Assembly (NCBI GenBank): GCA_030704845.1
Contig: JAUYKZ010000014.1
Span: forward strand, 1 to 38,347
DNA length: 38,347 nt
Reading direction: 5' to 3'
From: an archaeon
GTDB taxonomy: Archaea > Nanobdellota > Nanobdellia > Woesearchaeales > GW2011-AR9
Positions 1 to 38,347 of the stretch are shown one piece after another (within the stretch, counting starts at the first letter, position 1; the number at the start of each line of letters is the position of its first letter). Under the pieces are notes generated by a model. The model was not told the origin of the DNA. It saw only the letters and a program-made list of their open reading frames with translations, and ran no database searches. A program made the translations under genes and the position numbers.

Positions 1-142
1 ATATATAAAGTGCCAAAAATAAGTTCGAAAGCTTTGGCACTTTAGTATATACTGAACGAAAAGTATTTTTGTGAACTTTTCGTTGGTATATACAAACGCT
101 AAATGAATTAAGTTCCAAATTTCATTTAGCGTTGAGTATATT
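1..142. repeat. Tandem hairpin array (copy 1, cut by the window edge)
   Basis: Three perfect hairpins lie in a row. Hairpin A (7-43) has an 11-bp stem AAAGTGCCAAA, hairpin B (55-84) a 10-bp stem AACGAAAAGT, and hairpin C (95-133) a 13-bp stem AACGCTAAATGAA. They are separated by AGTATATAC-like spacers. Positions 1-50 are the exact reverse complement of the first half of the elements at 21499 and 23809, so this copy is inverted and probably continues to the left of the window. The loops of A and C share TAAGTTC(G/C)AAA although their stems differ. The function is unknown. Confidence 0.85.
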
Positions 143-3131: not shown

Positions 3132-3253
3132 AGCCCCGGGGGAGATTTGAACTCCCGACCTCCTGATTGCTTAATGTGCTTTTTTATGCTTTTGTAAACA
3201 CACCAGCGAGTGCACCATACAAGTCAGGTGCTATACCGCTAAGCCACCGGGGC
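3132..3253 (-). tRNA. tRNA-Thr(TGT) with a 50-nt intron
   Basis: The acceptor stem is GCCCCGG/CCGGGGC with discriminator T. The T arm is GGGAG-TTCAAAT-CTCCC and the anticodon stem is CCTGA/TCAGG. The spliced anticodon loop CTTGTAA gives anticodon TGT. An intron of about 50 nt (3168-3217) sits at the canonical 37/38 position. Loop bases CTTG can pair with TAAG near the intron 3' end and GTGC with GCAC inside it, as expected for a bulge-helix-bulge cut by the archaeal splicing endonuclease. CCA is not encoded. The spliced length is 72 nt. A minus-strand TATA-like box lies at about 3277-3289. Confidence 0.9.
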
Positions 3254-6467: not shown

Positions 6468-6556
6468 GCCCTTGTCGTCTAGCCCGGACAGGACGTGAGC
6501 TTGCGGCCAGTAATGACAAAAAGCTTGAAACCGGGGTTCGAATCCCCGCGAGGGCA
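6468..6556 (+). tRNA. tRNA-Arg(GCG) with a 15-nt intron
   Basis: The acceptor stem is GCCCTTG/CGAGGGC with discriminator A. The D stem is GTCT/GGAC, the T arm CGGGG-TTCGAAT-CCCCG, and the anticodon stem TGAGC/GCTTG. The 22 nt between the anticodon stem halves are resolved by removing 15 nt (6507-6521) at the 37/38 position, leaving loop TTGCGGA and anticodon GCG. A20 in the D loop fits arginine identity. The 3' splice site lies in an AAA bulge next to CAA, which can pair with TTG. CCA is not encoded. If the intron boundary were shifted the anticodon would change, so the identity is less certain than the tRNA call. Confidence 0.8.
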
Positions 6557-21498: not shown

Positions 21499-21593
21499 AT
21501 ATACTAAAGTGCCAAAGCTTTCGAACTTATTTTTGGCACTTTATATATATAAAATGCGTTAATATATTCGAAATCTAACGCATTTTAGTATAT
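21499..21593. repeat. Paired-hairpin element, copy 2
   Basis: This 95-bp unit is bounded by perfect inverted termini ATATACTAAA and TTTAGTATAT. It contains hairpin A (21506-21542, stem AAAGTGCCAAA) and hairpin D (21551-21586, stem AAAATGCGTTA) joined by TATATATA. It is identical to copy 3 except for the length of the TA spacer. A TATA-like TTATTTAAACC (21477-21487) lies just upstream. The xpd gene's own TATA-like box lies after the element. Confidence 0.9.
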
Positions 21594-21607
21594 CATTGAA
21601 AACACGA

Positions 21608-21620
21608 ACCTTTTTAAGCC
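21608..21620 (+). promoter_or_regulatory. TATA-like box of xpd
   Basis: ACCTTTTTAAGCC lies 20-32 nt before the ATG at 21640 and downstream of hairpin element copy 2. Confidence 0.5.
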
Positions 21621-21639
21621 TTTACCAATCCTAAAAATT

Positions 21640-23502
21640 ATGATTTCAGAAGACCTTCTTCATTTTTTCCCTCATGAAAAGATTAGAGGAGGACAAGAAG
21701 AATTAGTAATAGACCTTTCTTCAGCTTTAAGCAATAAAAAGATTCTTCTGGCTCATGCTCCGACCGGTCTTGGAAAAACCGCTAGCGCGCTATCTGTAGC
21801 GTTATTTGAAGCTCAGAAACATAAAAAGAAAGTTCTCTTCTTAACTAATAGGCATACTCAGCATCAAATTGCAATCCATACTTTAAAATTAATTAGCCGA
21901 AAAATTGGGAAAAAAATTGTGTGTGCTGATTTAATTGGTAAGAGATGGATGTGCAGCCACGATACGGCAGGATTATTTGGTAATGATTTTAATGAATTTT
22001 GTAAAACAATTGTTGAAAGGGGAGAATGTGAGTTCTATAATAATATCAGAACCAATAAAGGACTTACCGTAACTGGAGAAGCTTTGCTTGCACAATTACA
22101 GAAACTTGAACCGTTACATAATGAAGAACTGATTGAACAAAGTAAAGAACAAAGAATGTGTAGTTATGAAGTATCATTAGCATTAGCTAAGAAAGCTGAC
22201 GTGATTATTGGAGATTATTATTATCTCTTTAACCCGTTTGTTCAATCTACCTTATTTGCTAAATTAGATATCACAATGGAGGATATCATAGTAATTGTTG
22301 ATGAAGGACATAATTTACCTTCAAGAGTTACCGACATGTTAAGTTCACAATTAACTACCGCAATGGTTTATAATGCTATTCAAGAAGCAAAAAAGTTCAG
22401 ATATGATGGTCTATTAAATTGGCTTCAGGAATTAGGAAAAGTGTTAGTTAATTTAGGTACATTTGAATCAACAGAAATTGGCAAAGAAAGACTTATTCTG
22501 AAAGAAGATTTCTTTAATGCAGTTAATAAAATACAAGATTATGATGAATTGATTAATGAAATTGAACTAGCAGCAGATGAAGTACGTAAAAAACAACGAA
22601 GATCTTACCTTGGTGGAATAGCTTCTTTTCTTGATTCATGGAAAGGCGAAGATGAGGGATTTATTAGAGCTGTAAGTGAAAAACCAGGAACTTCAAACGT
22701 AGTACATATGATTCGATATTCCTGCCTTGACCCAAGTATTGTTACTAAAACTGTTTTCCAAAGAGTTCATGCTGGAGTTATTATGAGCGGAACATTACAA
22801 CCAACGTTTATGTATAAAGATCTCTTAGGGATAGAAAACGGTGTTGAGAAAGGATATCATTCTCCGTTTCCTCCAGAAAATAGAGTTAGCCTAATTGTTC
22901 CTGAAACAAGTACTAAATATGAAACGCGAGGAGACGCTATGTATAAAAAAATCTCCGAAAAATGTTCAGATATTTCTTCTTTAATACCGGGAAATGTTGC
23001 TCTGTTCTTTCCATCATACGACTTGAGAGATCGAGTAGGCGTATTCTTTCTGTCAAAGAAAGAATTATTTTGGGAAAAAAGTTCCATGAGTAAAGAAGAA
23101 AAAGAAGAATTCCTTCAGAAGTTTAAAGATAAGAAAAAAACAGGCGCAGTTTTATTGGGAGTAACCGGGGGAAGTTTCGCTGAAGGCGTGGATTTTCCAG
23201 GAGATTTACTACAGGGAGTTGTTATTATTGGTCTACCACTTGGCAAACCAGATTTGATGACAAAGAAAACTATCGCTTACTATGACCTCAAATTTGGCAG
23301 AGGCTGGGATTACGGATATACTTTTCCCGCAATAAACAAATGTTTACAGTCAGCAGGAAGATGTATCCGCTCAGAGAAAGATCGTGGAGCAGTTATTTAT
23401 CTTGATGAACGATTTGCTTGGCCAAAATACTTTTCATGTTTTCCTCGAGAAGGATTGATTGTAACGAAAGAATATGAAAAATTTTTGAAAGAATTCTTTT
23501 AG
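21640..23502 (+). CDS. xpd: XPD/Rad3-family DNA helicase
   Basis: This 620-residue superfamily 2 helicase has Walker A APTGLGKT (40-47), motif II DEGH (221-224) and motif VI QSAGRCIRSEKDRG near the C-terminus. Four Cys (105, 121, 130 and 174) are placed as in the iron-sulfur domain of XPD, so it is probably a 5'-to-3' FeS helicase of DNA repair. Motif II reads DEGH where DEAH is usual in this family. The gene is bracketed by two direct copies of the hairpin element. Confidence 0.93.
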   Translation: MISEDLLHFFPHEKIRGGQEELVIDLSSALSNKKILLAHAPTGLGKTASALSVALFEAQKHKKKVLFLTNRHTQHQIAIHTLKLISRKIGKKIVCADLIGKRWMCSHDTAGLFGNDFNEFCKTIVERGECEFYNNIRTNKGLTVTGEALLAQLQKLEPLHNEELIEQSKEQRMCSYEVSLALAKKADVIIGDYYYLFNPFVQSTLFAKLDITMEDIIVIVDEGHNLPSRVTDMLSSQLTTAMVYNAIQEAKKFRYDGLLNWLQELGKVLVNLGTFESTEIGKERLILKEDFFNAVNKIQDYDELINEIELAADEVRKKQRRSYLGGIASFLDSWKGEDEGFIRAVSEKPGTSNVVHMIRYSCLDPSIVTKTVFQRVHAGVIMSGTLQPTFMYKDLLGIENGVEKGYHSPFPPENRVSLIVPETSTKYETRGDAMYKKISEKCSDISSLIPGNVALFFPSYDLRDRVGVFFLSKKELFWEKSSMSKEEKEEFLQKFKDKKKTGAVLLGVTGGSFAEGVDFPGDLLQGVVIIGLPLGKPDLMTKKTIAYYDLKFGRGWDYGYTFPAINKCLQSAGRCIRSEKDRGAVIYLDERFAWPKYFSCFPREGLIVTKEYEKFLKEFF

Positions 23503-23559
23503 ATAGCAAAAACAGAACCATTTTGATGCAAATACCCCCCCAGTATACCAAAACGTAAC

Positions 23560-23703
23560 ATTTATATACCTGTCCCTCTTTTCTAACAAATACATCGAAA
23601 GACAGCGATAACTTGCGTCTTTCTTAAATCACAATGATTGAGGGGTTCCTCTATGAGTTCTACCACCCTCACCCCCTCTTGAGGAATCCCCCATCTTTTT
23701 CTT
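23560..23703 (+). ncRNA. Candidate small structured RNA
   Basis: A TATA box ATTTATATA (23560-23568) is followed at the right distance by an RNA-like region with no convincing reading frame. Stem 1 pairs GAAAGAC (23597-23603) with GTCTTTC (23617-23623) and is extended inward by GC/GC past one bulged A. Stem 2 pairs 23640-23651 with 23681-23692 in 11 of 12 positions, including one G-T pair, around a 29-nt pyrimidine-rich loop. A CTTTTTCTT tract then ends the unit. It does not match SRP RNA, RNase P RNA or box C/D patterns that I can recognise. Confidence 0.55.
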
Positions 23704-23776
23704 ATGATTTTAAATGAATAAAAAGTTCTAGCCAGGAATAAAGCAGTGCTACCTCCCAGTAGTTAAACGTCGAAAG

Positions 23777-23786
23777 TTTTATATAG
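23777..23786 (+). promoter_or_regulatory. TATA box upstream of hairpin element copy 3
   Basis: TTTTATATAG lies 23-32 nt before the hairpin element. Without the element it would lie about 30-38 nt before the ATG at 23911. The element therefore sits between promoter and coding region and is probably transcribed as a 5' leader. Confidence 0.5.
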
Positions 23787-23808
23787 AAGAAAGCTACATT
23801 TTTCTAAT

Positions 23809-23904
23809 ATATACTAAAGTGCCAAAGCTTTCGAACTTATTTTTGGCACTTTATATATATATAAAATGCGTTAATATATTCGAAATCTAACGCATTTTAG
23901 TATA
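23809..23904. repeat. Paired-hairpin element, copy 3
   Basis: This copy has the same A and D hairpins as copy 2 (A at 23816-23852, D at 23863-23898), in the same orientation, with a TA spacer two bases longer. It ends 6 nt before the start codon at 23911. Confidence 0.9.
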
Positions 23905-23910
23905 GCAAAA

Positions 23911-24336
23911 ATGACAACATACACTTACAGAAGACTATCGGATCTCCCAGAATCCTTAGATGATTTTTGTGGAGAAATGGGAGAAATTGGTTCAAAAAAT
24001 TCTTTAGAATCAATGGCAAAACCCGAAACTGAAGAAGTAGAACCATCAAAAATTTTTGAAAGAGTATGTTTTACTGCAGGCGCGATCTACCTTTTAGCGG
24101 CCCCATTAGTAGGTTATAAAATTTATACTAACCTTGAGAATTATTCAAGCGGAACAATTATAGCTGGCTCATTAGTAGTAACAGAACTAATCATGCTTGG
24201 CTTCACACATTTAGAATCAGCAAAAAAGGGATATCTCATAAACAGATATTCTAACACCTTGCTCTTTATTGGAACAGTTGCAGACTTCTTTGTAAAAACA
24301 TACGATTCAATTACTAAAAAAAATGAAAAAAAATGA
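23911..24336 (+). CDS. Small membrane protein of unknown function
   Basis: This 141-residue protein has an acidic N-terminal cytosolic part (DLPESLDDFCGEMGE) and hydrophobic segments at about 51-68, 81-98 and 112-125. I do not recognise it. The start lies directly after hairpin element copy 3, which forms its 5' leader. The next gene overlaps its end by 14 nt, and the two share an acidic S-(L/I)-D-D-(F/Y)-C motif near the N-terminus, hinting at a duplicated or interacting pair. Confidence 0.65.
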   Translation: MTTYTYRRLSDLPESLDDFCGEMGEIGSKNSLESMAKPETEEVEPSKIFERVCFTAGAIYLLAAPLVGYKIYTNLENYSSGTIIAGSLVVTELIMLGFTHLESAKKGYLINRYSNTLLFIGTVADFFVKTYDSITKKNEKK

Positions 24337-34633: not shown

Positions 34634-37600
34634 TTAGAAATATTCGAACTTTCTGCGTTTTTTAATAAAGTACATAATCATAACGGCCGGAATGAAAATG
34701 AACATTAATAAGGCAGTTAAAACTAACCGAGTATTAATTCGATCCCAGAATCGCAGATTAGATACAGATTCTTCTCCTCCGAAATCCATTGCAAACTCTT
34801 GCTGTGCAATTATTTTATTTTCCTTGAACAACTTCATTTGAATCTGTTTCTGACCAGCATAAATTTCGGGATTATATTTCAATTGTTGAGCAAAAATAAA
34901 TCCTTTATCTTCCCGTACACTATAAGGTCCGTATACTTCAGCAAAAATCGGGTTTGAATTTTCTTCATTGCTAACGGTAAATTCAAGGAAATAATCATTA
35001 AATTTTTCTAATCCATCAATTGCAGGGATTAACATGTATAATTCCAATAATTTTTCATCTTTGAACAAATCAATGGTTACACCCATACCACTATCCTGTT
35101 CAGCAATATCTTTTTCTAAAACATCTTCCCCAGCTGATTTGAAAACTATTTTTCGAGGGACTGGATTTGCAGAAAGCCCTTTTCTCAAAGTACATGTTTT
35201 TTCAACTTTTTCTCCCGGCTTGACAAATAATTCTCCGCAATCCTCTAAATAGGACTCAAGAAGTTTACCTTTAACATGCTGACCGGTATACGTAATTCCG
35301 CTACTTAACCAGGAGTCTTCTTTTAAATTCTCTGTTTGAGATATTAATCCTGTGTTCCCTGTCAACTGAGTATTATCACTTGTAACTTGAGAGATCTCAT
35401 TTTGATTTAAACCAGGAACTGTATTCTTAATTTGATGCTCATTATCTAAACCAAGTAAAAGAGAGCCAGAAAGCAAAATAACGGCAATGAAAAATACAAA
35501 TTTAAAGAACCTAGACTTTGTTCTTCTTTTTCCATTTAAATCTTCCCCATAATTTCCCGCAATGGTTATTAATCCTAATAATACAACCACGATAGTGAAC
35601 AAGACGAAACCAAAAATAATGGATGACATCCCATCTTCAAAGATTGCTAATTTCATTTGACCTTCTTGCTCACCAAAGTACACATTAAATTCATGTTGCG
35701 CAACAACTTCCCCATTTTTGATAACTCTTGTTTGAATTAGTTTGTTTCCATAATAAACTTCTGGCTTATATTTAAATTGTTGAGCGAATACAAAACCCTT
35801 ATCTTCTCTGACTAAGAACGGCCCAAATAGTTCAGCAAATAGATATTTAAGGTTGGTATCTCCATTGATTGTATCAACCAGTTTATCGTCAATCATAAAT
35901 TCTAAGGAATAATCATTAAATTTATCTGACCCGCCAACTTTTGGAATTAACATATATAATTCTATTAAATTCTTTTGTAGATCAACATCGACCGCAGCTC
36001 CAATTGCCCCTTCTTGCGGATCAACATCTTTTTCTAGAACTTTCTTATTCTCTGATTTAAAGACTATTTGTGTAGAGGTAGGATTAGCAGTTATCCTTCT
36101 TCGCACAGTACAAGTTTTTTCAAAGATTTCCCCCGGCTTCAAAACTACTTCTCCACAATCCTCTAAACTAGATTCTAATAATTTACCTGTGATTTGTTGG
36201 CCAGTGTGGACAATATCTTCATTTGATTCAAAGAAACCAAAGGTTTTCTCTGTAAGGATTGGTTGTACATCTCCTGTAATTTTGATACTATTAATGATCT
36301 CTTGTAATAATTTTTCTTGCTCATCTCTCGATAATTCCGGATGTTCTTCACTGATCCTTAGATTTAATGCACTTTCCATTTCAGCTTGATTTTCAAGAAC
36401 AATTTCTTCTCCTTTCAGTTCTGGTGTTAAAGTGATAGTTTGATCTCCATCATTAAGATAATAAATAGGTACTTCCGTGAATGTAACGATTGGTGTAGTA
36501 GAAATTACTTGTTCCCCAACATTTTCAACAGGAACTTCTCCCGGTTTGAAAAGATTATCTAGGCTAAACGTCTTTTCTGTAAAGATTGGTTGAACATTCT
36601 TCTGTTCAATCAGTTTATATAGGTCTATTTGCTCTTCGGTTAAAGGTTCTCCAAGTTCGGAAGACCATTTTCTTAAGTTATCTTCAAATTCATCAATATA
36701 TTCTGGGCTGATAAGTTCTTCTTTAAGTTCGGGATATAAATTAACAATCGTATCCCCGTTATTTGTAATTGTAAATGTGATTTTTTCTGCGGTAGATATT
36801 GATTCAGATGAACTAGCTTCATAAGTTATTTCAGCTGCAGTCATCACGTCAACAGTAACTTTTCCGGCTCCCAATAATGTTATGACATCCCCGGCCGTTG
36901 CCGTTTTAAGAAGACTTCCATCGATAATACTATCTTCGCTAGTACTCTCTTCAACAACAGCACTTCCCCCACCACTACCTCCGCTTCCAGCACCGGCCCC
37001 AGCACTAGTTGTGAAAGCAATTTGAGTTGAAGATGGATTAGAGTTACCTAAAGCGTCTTGACAACGGACATAATAAACGTAAGCTCTTGAAGAACTCAGT
37101 CCAGTAACCGAGTGAGAGTGAGAAAGAGTGCCAGAACCATCCATGATGTACCTCATTTCAGCATATGACATCTCTCCGGAATCATACTTACAAGTTGCTT
37201 CTTCGTTAGTTGTTACAACTAATTGCGCGGTACTTGAAGTTATCAAAGTAGCACTTCCAATAAGAATTGGCGGAGTTATGTCTGATTGATTAATGGTAAA
37301 GTTTTGGGTGATGGATAAGTTGTTCAATAAAACACTATCATTACAACTTACGCTCCAGTTATGGTCACCTAAAGCTATCGCAATAGGGATAGTATAATCT
37401 GTTGTTGTTCCGTTTATGCTTGAAATGTCCGCCGTATTAATGGAATCATCCACAATAAGATCGCAGGTTAAAGTTGTAGCCCAGGTATCATTTACTTGCC
37501 ATTCGAAAGTTGGTGTGGTATCTAAGATACTTCTGTTGTTGGTTAAATTATACAACTCAACAGTATCTGGGGTGGTTGTATCAACAAGGAAATTAACAGT

Positions 37601-38347
37601 TGCATCGCTACTCAAATTACTTCCATCACTTGCAAAGACAGTTAAGGTATGATTTCCATCAACAATCGATTCGGAAGAGACTGTTAAGCTAGCGTTAAAC
37701 AATGAAGCGTTGGTTGAGCTTCCAGTTAAATTACCTAGATTAGAACCATTAGATATTTGGAAGAGTACGGAAGTTACAGCTATATCATCACTTACCGAAG
37801 CATTGAATACTATGATATCTCCGGTAGTGAAATTTGTTCTTGTAATTGGAGAATTTATTGCATTAATAGATGGAGCACCAGTACTGATAGTGAAATTGTG
37901 AGTCATAGAGTTACTATTAAGATTAACACTATCATTACAACTTATACTCCAATTATGATTCCCACTTGAAATAGCGGCTAAGAGGGTGTAATCCGTTGTT
38001 GTCCCATTTGTACTTGAGATGCCAGCAGTATTAATTGAATCATCTACGATAAGATCACAAATTAGAGTTGTAGTCCAAGTATCATTCACTTGCCATTCGA
38101 AAGTAGGGATAGTATCGGTGATAATTTTGCCACCAGTTAAATTATACAACTCAACTGTTTCAGGATTGGTAGTATCAACAAGGAAAGATACGTTTACATC
38201 TGTATCAAACGTATCATTCTCATTGCCAGCAGTATCGTTAGCATAAACAAACAGAGTATGATTTCCATCAAGTAAGGAACTTGCGCTTAAAGTCATATTG
38301 AACAAAGTGTCATTAGTTGAACTGGTCGTTTCATTTCTTAAAGTGCC
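34634..38347 (-). CDS. Giant repeat-containing surface protein (5' end outside the window)
   Basis: At least 1237 residues of one open frame run off the right edge, so the start is missing. From the N-terminal side there are two copies of a long Ig-like unit (LVDTTxPxTVELYNLT, then EWQVNDTW), a fibronectin-III-like unit ending before a Gly/Ser linker, a tandem pair of domains ending QPI(F/L)TEKTF, and a duplicated domain with DCGE and KGF(V/I)FAQQ. Three membrane segments lie near the C-terminus (nt about 35560-35640, 35445-35510 and 34660-34720), and the protein ends KKRRKFEYF. Many N-x-(S/T) sites suggest a glycosylated S-layer- or adhesin-like protein. Confidence 0.85.
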   Translation of the reverse strand, partial: GTLRNETTSSTNDTLFNMTLSASSLLDGNHTLFVYANDTAGNENDTFDTDVNVSFLVDTTNPETVELYNLTGGKIITDTIPTFEWQVNDTWTTTLICDLIVDDSINTAGISSTNGTTTDYTLLAAISSGNHNWSISCNDSVNLNSNSMTHNFTISTGAPSINAINSPITRTNFTTGDIIVFNASVSDDIAVTSVLFQISNGSNLGNLTGSSTNASLFNASLTVSSESIVDGNHTLTVFASDGSNLSSDATVNFLVDTTTPDTVELYNLTNNRSILDTTPTFEWQVNDTWATTLTCDLIVDDSINTADISSINGTTTDYTIPIAIALGDHNWSVSCNDSVLLNNLSITQNFTINQSDITPPILIGSATLITSSTAQLVVTTNEEATCKYDSGEMSYAEMRYIMDGSGTLSHSHSVTGLSSSRAYVYYVRCQDALGNSNPSSTQIAFTTSAGAGAGSGGSGGGSAVVEESTSEDSIIDGSLLKTATAGDVITLLGAGKVTVDVMTAAEITYEASSSESISTAEKITFTITNNGDTIVNLYPELKEELISPEYIDEFEDNLRKWSSELGEPLTEEQIDLYKLIEQKNVQPIFTEKTFSLDNLFKPGEVPVENVGEQVISTTPIVTFTEVPIYYLNDGDQTITLTPELKGEEIVLENQAEMESALNLRISEEHPELSRDEQEKLLQEIINSIKITGDVQPILTEKTFGFFESNEDIVHTGQQITGKLLESSLEDCGEVVLKPGEIFEKTCTVRRRITANPTSTQIVFKSENKKVLEKDVDPQEGAIGAAVDVDLQKNLIELYMLIPKVGGSDKFNDYSLEFMIDDKLVDTINGDTNLKYLFAELFGPFLVREDKGFVFAQQFKYKPEVYYGNKLIQTRVIKNGEVVAQHEFNVYFGEQEGQMKLAIFEDGMSSIIFGFVLFTIVVVLLGLITIAGNYGEDLNGKRRTKSRFFKFVFFIAVILLSGSLLLGLDNEHQIKNTVPGLNQNEISQVTSDNTQLTGNTGLISQTENLKEDSWLSSGITYTGQHVKGKLLESYLEDCGELFVKPGEKVEKTCTLRKGLSANPVPRKIVFKSAGEDVLEKDIAEQDSGMGVTIDLFKDEKLLELYMLIPAIDGLEKFNDYFLEFTVSNEENSNPIFAEVYGPYSVREDKGFIFAQQLKYNPEIYAGQKQIQMKLFKENKIIAQQEFAMDFGGEESVSNLRFWDRINTRLVLTALLMFIFIPAVMIMYFIKKRRKFEYF

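Follow-up and report, generated by a model that had tools for sequence, protein, structure and literature searches.

Hairpins whose stems differ and whose loops are related raise the question of what is being maintained, and by what. An earlier note on the DNA analysed here (a stretch of 38,347 nt, hereafter the window) described four perfect hairpins, A to D, at three loci, with the loop sequence TAAGTTC(G/C)AAA common to A and C, TTCGAAA in D, and TATATA spacers. It proposed selection on structure and not on sequence, and offered a non-coding RNA family, an array of recombination sites or ends on which a single-strand transposase or integrase acts in trans as possible readings.

Hairpins of the window

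A hairpin search of the window agrees with this description in the places, loops and spacers of the hairpins (Table 1). With a threshold of at least 10 perfect bp, a loop of 5-19 nt and at least two G/C in the arm, exactly seven hairpins were found, all of them copies of A to D, compared with a mean of 0.8 and a maximum of 3 in windows resampled from a first-order Markov model (n=20). RNA folding of positions 1-142 gave z = -9.0.

Table 1. Hairpins and composite elements (M1, M2) in the window
Feature	Position	Strand	Details
Right half of M1	1-47	.	Hairpin A 6-44; outer end TTTAGTA 41-47; model R1 match 1-49, cut by contig end
M2 element TACTG...GAGTA	50-138	+	Hairpins B and C; TA at 48-49 and 139-140
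Hairpin B, left end of M2	55-84	+	10-bp stem AACGAAAAGT, 10-nt loop
Hairpin C, right end of M2	95-133	+	13-bp stem AACGCTAAATGAA, 13-nt loop
Complete M1, TACTAAAGTGCC...CGCATTTTAGTA	21502-21590	+	A 21505-21543, D 21550-21587; R1 bit score 104, E 2.8e-17; TA flanks 21500-21501 and 21591-21592; upstream of helicase ORF 21640-23502
Complete M1, same orientation as the 21502-21590 copy	23812-23902	+	A 23815-23853, D 23862-23899; R1 E 8.9e-16; TA flanks 23810-23811 and 23903-23904; central TA run longer by 2 nt; ATG of ORF 23911-24336 begins 8 nt past the end

Two composite elements, M1 and M2

The view of A to D as one family did not hold, since A always forms an inverted pair with D, and B with C, giving two elements of about 89 nt each. 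M1 has the architecture TATAC-[A]-TATATA-[D]-GTATA, with outer ends TACTAAA...TTTAGTA, while M2 reads TATACTG-[B]-GGTATATACA-[C]-GAGTATA, with the outer TIR TACTG/TACTC. The loops of A and D are alike because the two hairpins are always the inverted ends of M1. The segment at 1-142 consists of the right half of M1 and a whole M2, the left half of M1 (D) being missing because the contig starts there; several other contigs of the assembly also start or stop at M1/M2 composites. Nor do the four hairpins form a single array; they make up two mobile elements with two ends each.

We searched for copies in the window's own assembly (G000), a draft of 1.02 Mb in 24 contigs that is 97% complete and comes from a tiny archaeon related to Woesearchaeota, examining them in stretches around matches and not by tiling the genome. 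G000 holds about 40 placements of M1 and about 23 of M2, dispersed and nearly identical. A census by foot pattern gave 69 matches, 68 of which are M1 hairpin ends, with about 28 intact pairs; the ends outside intact pairs mostly belong to copies into which M2 has inserted or which a contig end cuts off. Most copies are intergenic, and the gene contexts ++, --, -+ and +- are represented alike. In being short, non-coding and dispersed, with the TIR TACTAAA and about 40 copies, M1 is like a MITE. A fixed 1-nt bulge in the hairpins was considered and rejected: the extra base distinguishes the outer from the inner foot, and some solo hairpins have two outer feet.

A third pair type was also seen in G000, with stems AAAAGAATTGGGTT and CAAAATCCATAGATTTC and a centre interrupted by M2 (stretch L249, G000:C21, 3489-3680). 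A similar stem occurs in G048 (L058), a genome of another family.

Insertion at TA, nesting and mobility

The boundary of M1 was examined by matching only the core TACT...AGTA, with flanks not required, which gave 27 copies in 27 different contexts of G000. TA lies beside the element on the left in 27 of 27 contexts and on the right in 26, and flanks matched over at least 3 nt just once (4 nt), with no longer duplication otherwise; conservation therefore stops at TA. The same flanking sequence would be given by a duplication, by TA carried on the element and by a circle with a TA core.

M2 has three kinds of site in M1, namely the D loop, the central TATATA and the outer end, and is also found in the centre of the third pair type. 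At every scorable M2 junction, the DNA added to the target (filled minus empty) is the M2 core plus six TA nucleotides, and this arithmetic is constant whichever way M2 points and in each of several TA registers. In G271, an element-rich genome described below, one pair lies inside another, and there the arithmetic is the same. Altogether 20 of the 23 M2 placements are within or adjacent to another hairpin element, a count that includes contig-end copies and may count some twice. The arithmetic fits a TAC...GTA element with TA duplication and, equally, a circle with a TA-rich core, as TA runs make the two look alike.

Two sites of G271 carry a pair that its congener G280 lacks; the flanking genes align, but a second insertion lies close to one site and the intergenic stretch of the other has diverged, and the empty junctions are only approximate. 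In G000, an M1+M2 composite truncates a reverse-transcriptase-like ORF (NCBIfam TIGR04416, E 1.4e-11), which stops 3 nt into the element. We regard M1 and M2 as almost certainly mobile.

The region of this truncated ORF (L248, G000:C6, 70-1658) resembles a diversity-generating retroelement, with two ORF segments that have matching endings, followed by the cut ORF.

Covariation within the terminal hairpins

We used the pairing of stem positions across diverged copies as a measure of what is maintained in these elements. A covariance model was made from 13 diverse copies, all of them located through sequence similarity. Pairing within the two local hairpins amounts to 93.3% in the 13-row alignment, and double changes occur at 15 of 23 pairs (45 cells), a level never reached in shuffles (0/500); controls in which the partner was slid by 1-3 columns gave at most 8 pairs and 15 cells. 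When the same alignment was paired end to end, as one long hairpin, covariation was at the level of the shuffles (4 pairs), and this fold of M1 was accordingly rejected as a selected structure. Among 87 distinct units chosen by foot sequence alone, with 46 distinct 8-nt arms, pairing over nine positions reached 82%, as against 44% (maximum 49%) with arms shuffled. The loop contains GAAC, GAAT or GTAC in 60 of 80 cases, and M1-type ends mostly carry a TCGAACA-like loop. Most stem positions are variable, in contrast to the conserved foot and loop.

In a simple TIR element the two ends are expected to stay alike. The object maintained here is a hairpin at each end, together with its outer foot and its loop, and the folded shape seems to be kept more than the letters, in line with the selection on structure that the earlier note had proposed. 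The covariance search that it called for was run and recovered stem variants with preserved pairing in related genomes; the copies are not confined to exact ones, and they match no known IS end or ncRNA family. As to the cause of the covariation, we lean towards recognition of the hairpin. Neutral quasipalindrome correction could also keep the stems paired without selection, but one-arm mismatches persist in recent copies (the GCG/CAC and GTG/CGC variants of D), which counts weakly against it.

Distribution across the order

A BLAST search of 60 relatives recovered full-length copies in other genera at about 72-80% identity. Of the 288 genomes searched in the order, 21 gave matches to the covariance model, and these represent at least 20 genera in 9 families; the model's counts per genome are minima, a count of 14 meaning at least 14. 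A pattern scan of named genomes gave matches in MAGs labelled Woesearchaeota and Pacearchaeota, and a scan of IMG/VR gave none. The foot pattern matched 149 times in G271 and 53 times in G280, with many stem types, compared with one match of the reversed control pattern in each, and both genomes also contain inverted hairpin pairs. In literature lying mainly outside subscription papers we found no account of such elements from Woesearchaeota or DPANN.

Two further hairpin families were noticed. Stretches L162, L169, L171, L173, L174 and L179 of G271 carry an element of about 53 nt with two hairpins, TCTCGGGAATCAGAGATTCCTGAGA AGTTAGAAAGC TTT GCTTTCCAACTTA, which sits repeatedly in the central TATA of pairs and whose ends are not inverted repeats. 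Another family, with the stem AGTAAGTGAC (or AGTAAGTAAC), occurs in two genomes, at L107 2481-2533, at L125 67-105 and in the flank of a G271 element; two of its places are near Y1 transposase genes.

Proposed movement and candidate enzymes

We think it reasonably likely that M1 and M2 are non-autonomous, TA-inserting elements of about 89 bp with a hairpin at each end, moved by an enzyme acting in trans that reads mainly hairpin, foot and loop. Each element has two inverted ends, each a hairpin with a variable self-complementary stem. Insertion is at TA dinucleotides, leaving TA on both sides, and elements often lie within each other, having entered at a TATA step of a hairpin loop, a centre or an end. 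The enzyme would recognise each end mainly as a hairpin with its outer foot and loop, presumably as single-stranded or cruciform DNA. Stems could then drift with their pairing kept, because the ends would be read mainly in this way. Recognition of the ends by an enzyme supplied in trans is thus the reading of the earlier note that the data favour, with single-strand or cruciform recognition as a presumed part of it.

The class of the enzyme is a matter of presumption as well. Enzymes of the IS200/IS605-RAYT type recognise ends as hairpin plus foot and loop, and an HUH-type enzyme is a tentative candidate. Flanking by TA at both ends is commoner with DDE elements than with Y1 enzymes; a DDE-type enzyme is a rather doubtful candidate, and a tyrosine recombinase an improbable one. 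Neither an autonomous copy nor a cognate enzyme was found in G000 or the genomes examined, and the draft G000 has no match to Y1 (PF01797), TnpB (PF07282) or IS630-type DDE (PF13358). Its sole DDE_Tnp_1 element was rejected as the mover, its 14-nt inverted ends GGCTCTGTCCAGAA being unrelated to M1. Y1 is present in 9 of 26 element-positive genomes versus 3 of 14 others. Around the Y1, TnpB, IS630 and DDE_Tnp_1 genes of element-positive genomes no comparable ends were seen, and inspection of about 370 kb of G271 revealed no gene with M1-type ends on both sides. Neither G271 nor G280 has a match to PF00239, which makes a serine recombinase unlikely. Because the G000 assembly has breaks at copies of the elements, a multi-copy autonomous element, or the enzyme, may lie in missing sequence.

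A more far-reaching version, which we put forward as speculation, is that the elements belong to an order-wide archaeal transposable family whose main conserved identity is the terminal hairpin pair with its TA-flanked foot, and whose structure-reading enzyme, of a kind not yet described, would combine insertion at TA in the manner of Tc1/mariner with the recognition of hairpins known from HUH and attC systems. Small palindromic repeats are abundant in genomes, and what moves them is often unknown, above all in archaea. Here, one family combines well-defined boundaries and a preference for TA targets with nested insertions and dozens of paired stem variants across an order, and so makes it testable whether a transposition enzyme reads the shape of DNA rather than its sequence. 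In archaea that are hard to culture, such an enzyme could be sought with the two-hairpin model together with the foot TATACTAAA and the loop TCGAACA.

Alternative explanations

Another way to view M1 and M2 is as ordinary MITEs of a TA-duplicating DDE transposase of the IS630/Tc1-mariner kind (like RUP and Correia), with palindromic ends that are dimer sites or are kept by template-switch quasipalindrome correction. The size, TIR and TA flanks fit, and IS630-type genes occur in 3 of 40 genomes of the order. However, a DDE_3 gene is absent from G000 and from the element-rich G271 and G280. Dimer sites should conserve their letters, yet it is the foot and loop that are conserved here, with stems varying at most positions, while quasipalindrome correction has to contend with the uncorrected one-arm mismatches of D. 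We consider this explanation unlikely.

The hairpins might also be attC-like single-strand sites for a tyrosine recombinase, in which case the element would circularise and integrate at a TA-rich core like an integron cassette. The core plus six TA nucleotides added by each M2 integration is what a circle with a 6-nt core would give, and two loci of G000 have a tyrosine recombinase within a few hundred bp of an array, while in G295 such a gene adjoins one. However, arrays number about 45 per Mb, so that chance proximity of this kind is expected now and then, and the neighbouring genes are therefore a weak lead only. The recombinases concerned are XerA-like or phage-like and score under the NCBIfam cut-offs; enzymes of this class, of which G000 has five, occur in 12 of 12 genomes searched. 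Conserved loops and inverted pairs, as seen here, are unlike attC sites, and we judge this account very unlikely.

One such neighbourhood stood out on inspection: positions 1-3400 of L249 (G000:C21) form a foreign-looking patch that includes a 391-aa XerA-like tyrosine recombinase and immediately adjoins a hairpin array.

A structured RNA family, either a non-coding RNA or a cis-regulatory leader with covarying stems, would account for the strong folding and the covariation, and two of the window's copies lie just upstream of ORFs. Against this, the Rfam search of the window gave only two tRNAs, and mismatched cells with G.U number 10 on the unit strand versus 19 on the other; there is thus no RNA-style tolerance on either strand, and an RNA from one strand is not favoured. 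The occurrence of copies in all gene orientations alike also speaks against it, and the elements nest and vary by presence, as mobile DNA does. The non-coding RNA suggested by the earlier note consequently finds no support, and the RNA reading is highly improbable. Finally, the hairpins might be places in the chromosome where a host protein acts, as nucleoid sites, terminators or recombination hot spots, and which gene conversion has spread. Such sites would also be numerous, intergenic and palindromic, but the sharp conserved boundary at TA, the nested insertions of constant arithmetic, the ORF truncated by one copy and the differences of the arms between lineages leave that explanation barely credible.

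Comparison with known small elements

Our best reading is that M1 and M2 belong with small non-autonomous hairpin-ended elements, as MITE-, SMR- or REPIN-like elements. The SMRs of Haloquadratum are the nearest described, and M1 and M2 work most like a REPIN or an SMR. SMR-A of Haloquadratum walsbyi is about 110 bp long, has TIRs unrelated to known transposons, reaches up to 54 copies and prefers palindromes of other small elements, and its mobilisation was called 'enigmatic'; SMRs were reported without target duplication (PMC3119063). M1 and M2 share with them the archaeal host, the size, a TIR that matched none of the transposon ends examined and insertion into palindromes, but differ in being TA-flanked at both ends, in the covarying stems of their end hairpins and in their order-wide presence in a distant archaeal lineage.

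REPINs and BIMEs consist of two inverted palindromes whose movement is ascribed to RAYT (Y1 HUH) transposases, and compensatory changes between the two sides of the whole-element hairpin have been reported in REPINs (PMC3116915). The unit of about 100 bp, the two inverted palindromic hairpins (A/D, B/C), the extragenic location, the lack of autonomy and the occurrence of single halves are common to both. Unlike REPINs, however, M1 covaries only in its local hairpins and has the foot TATACT / GTATA with the TA-flanked outer end TACTAAA in place of a GTAG-type foot; Y1 is absent from G000, and the Y1 genes of other element-positive genomes lack matching ends.

PATEs, which derive from IS605, have near-terminal palindromes without terminal inverted repeats or target duplication (PMC3119063). 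They resemble M1 and M2 in being archaeal and tiny with near-terminal palindromes, but M1 and M2 have a TIR and TA on both sides, and TnpB and Y1 are absent in G000. The elements therefore fall outside both REPINs and PATEs, having no GTAG foot, no Y1 gene and a TIR. RUP, Correia/NEMIS and Nezha duplicate TA and are IS630-related, and M1 and M2 are like such bacterial MITEs in size, TIR, TA flanks and intergenic position. The difference from these elements, which are listed as MITEs (PMC3733652), lies in the covarying hairpin at each end, and in G000 no IS630 gene was found.

Other features of the window

The 620-aa XPD/DinG-type helicase ORF (21640-23502) is bracketed by the two complete, same-orientation M1 copies (21500-23904), probably by chance. 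Two copies of a long hairpin with 38-nt arms, GGCTAATATGAAACCCTC...GAGGGTTTCATATTAGCC, lie at 1476-1600 and 2346-2470; they are 92% identical over 151 nt and, 870 bp apart, flank a PHP-domain ORF (1645-2352), and may represent a small element or a structured RNA. The two Rfam tRNA matches, at 3132-3253 (-) and 6468-6556 (+), have no ARAGORN call; the former is 122 nt long and probably contains an intron. At 34634-38305 (-) the window encodes a 1223-aa protein with Ig-like domains and internal DNA repeats (D1, D3 and D4), likely a surface protein.
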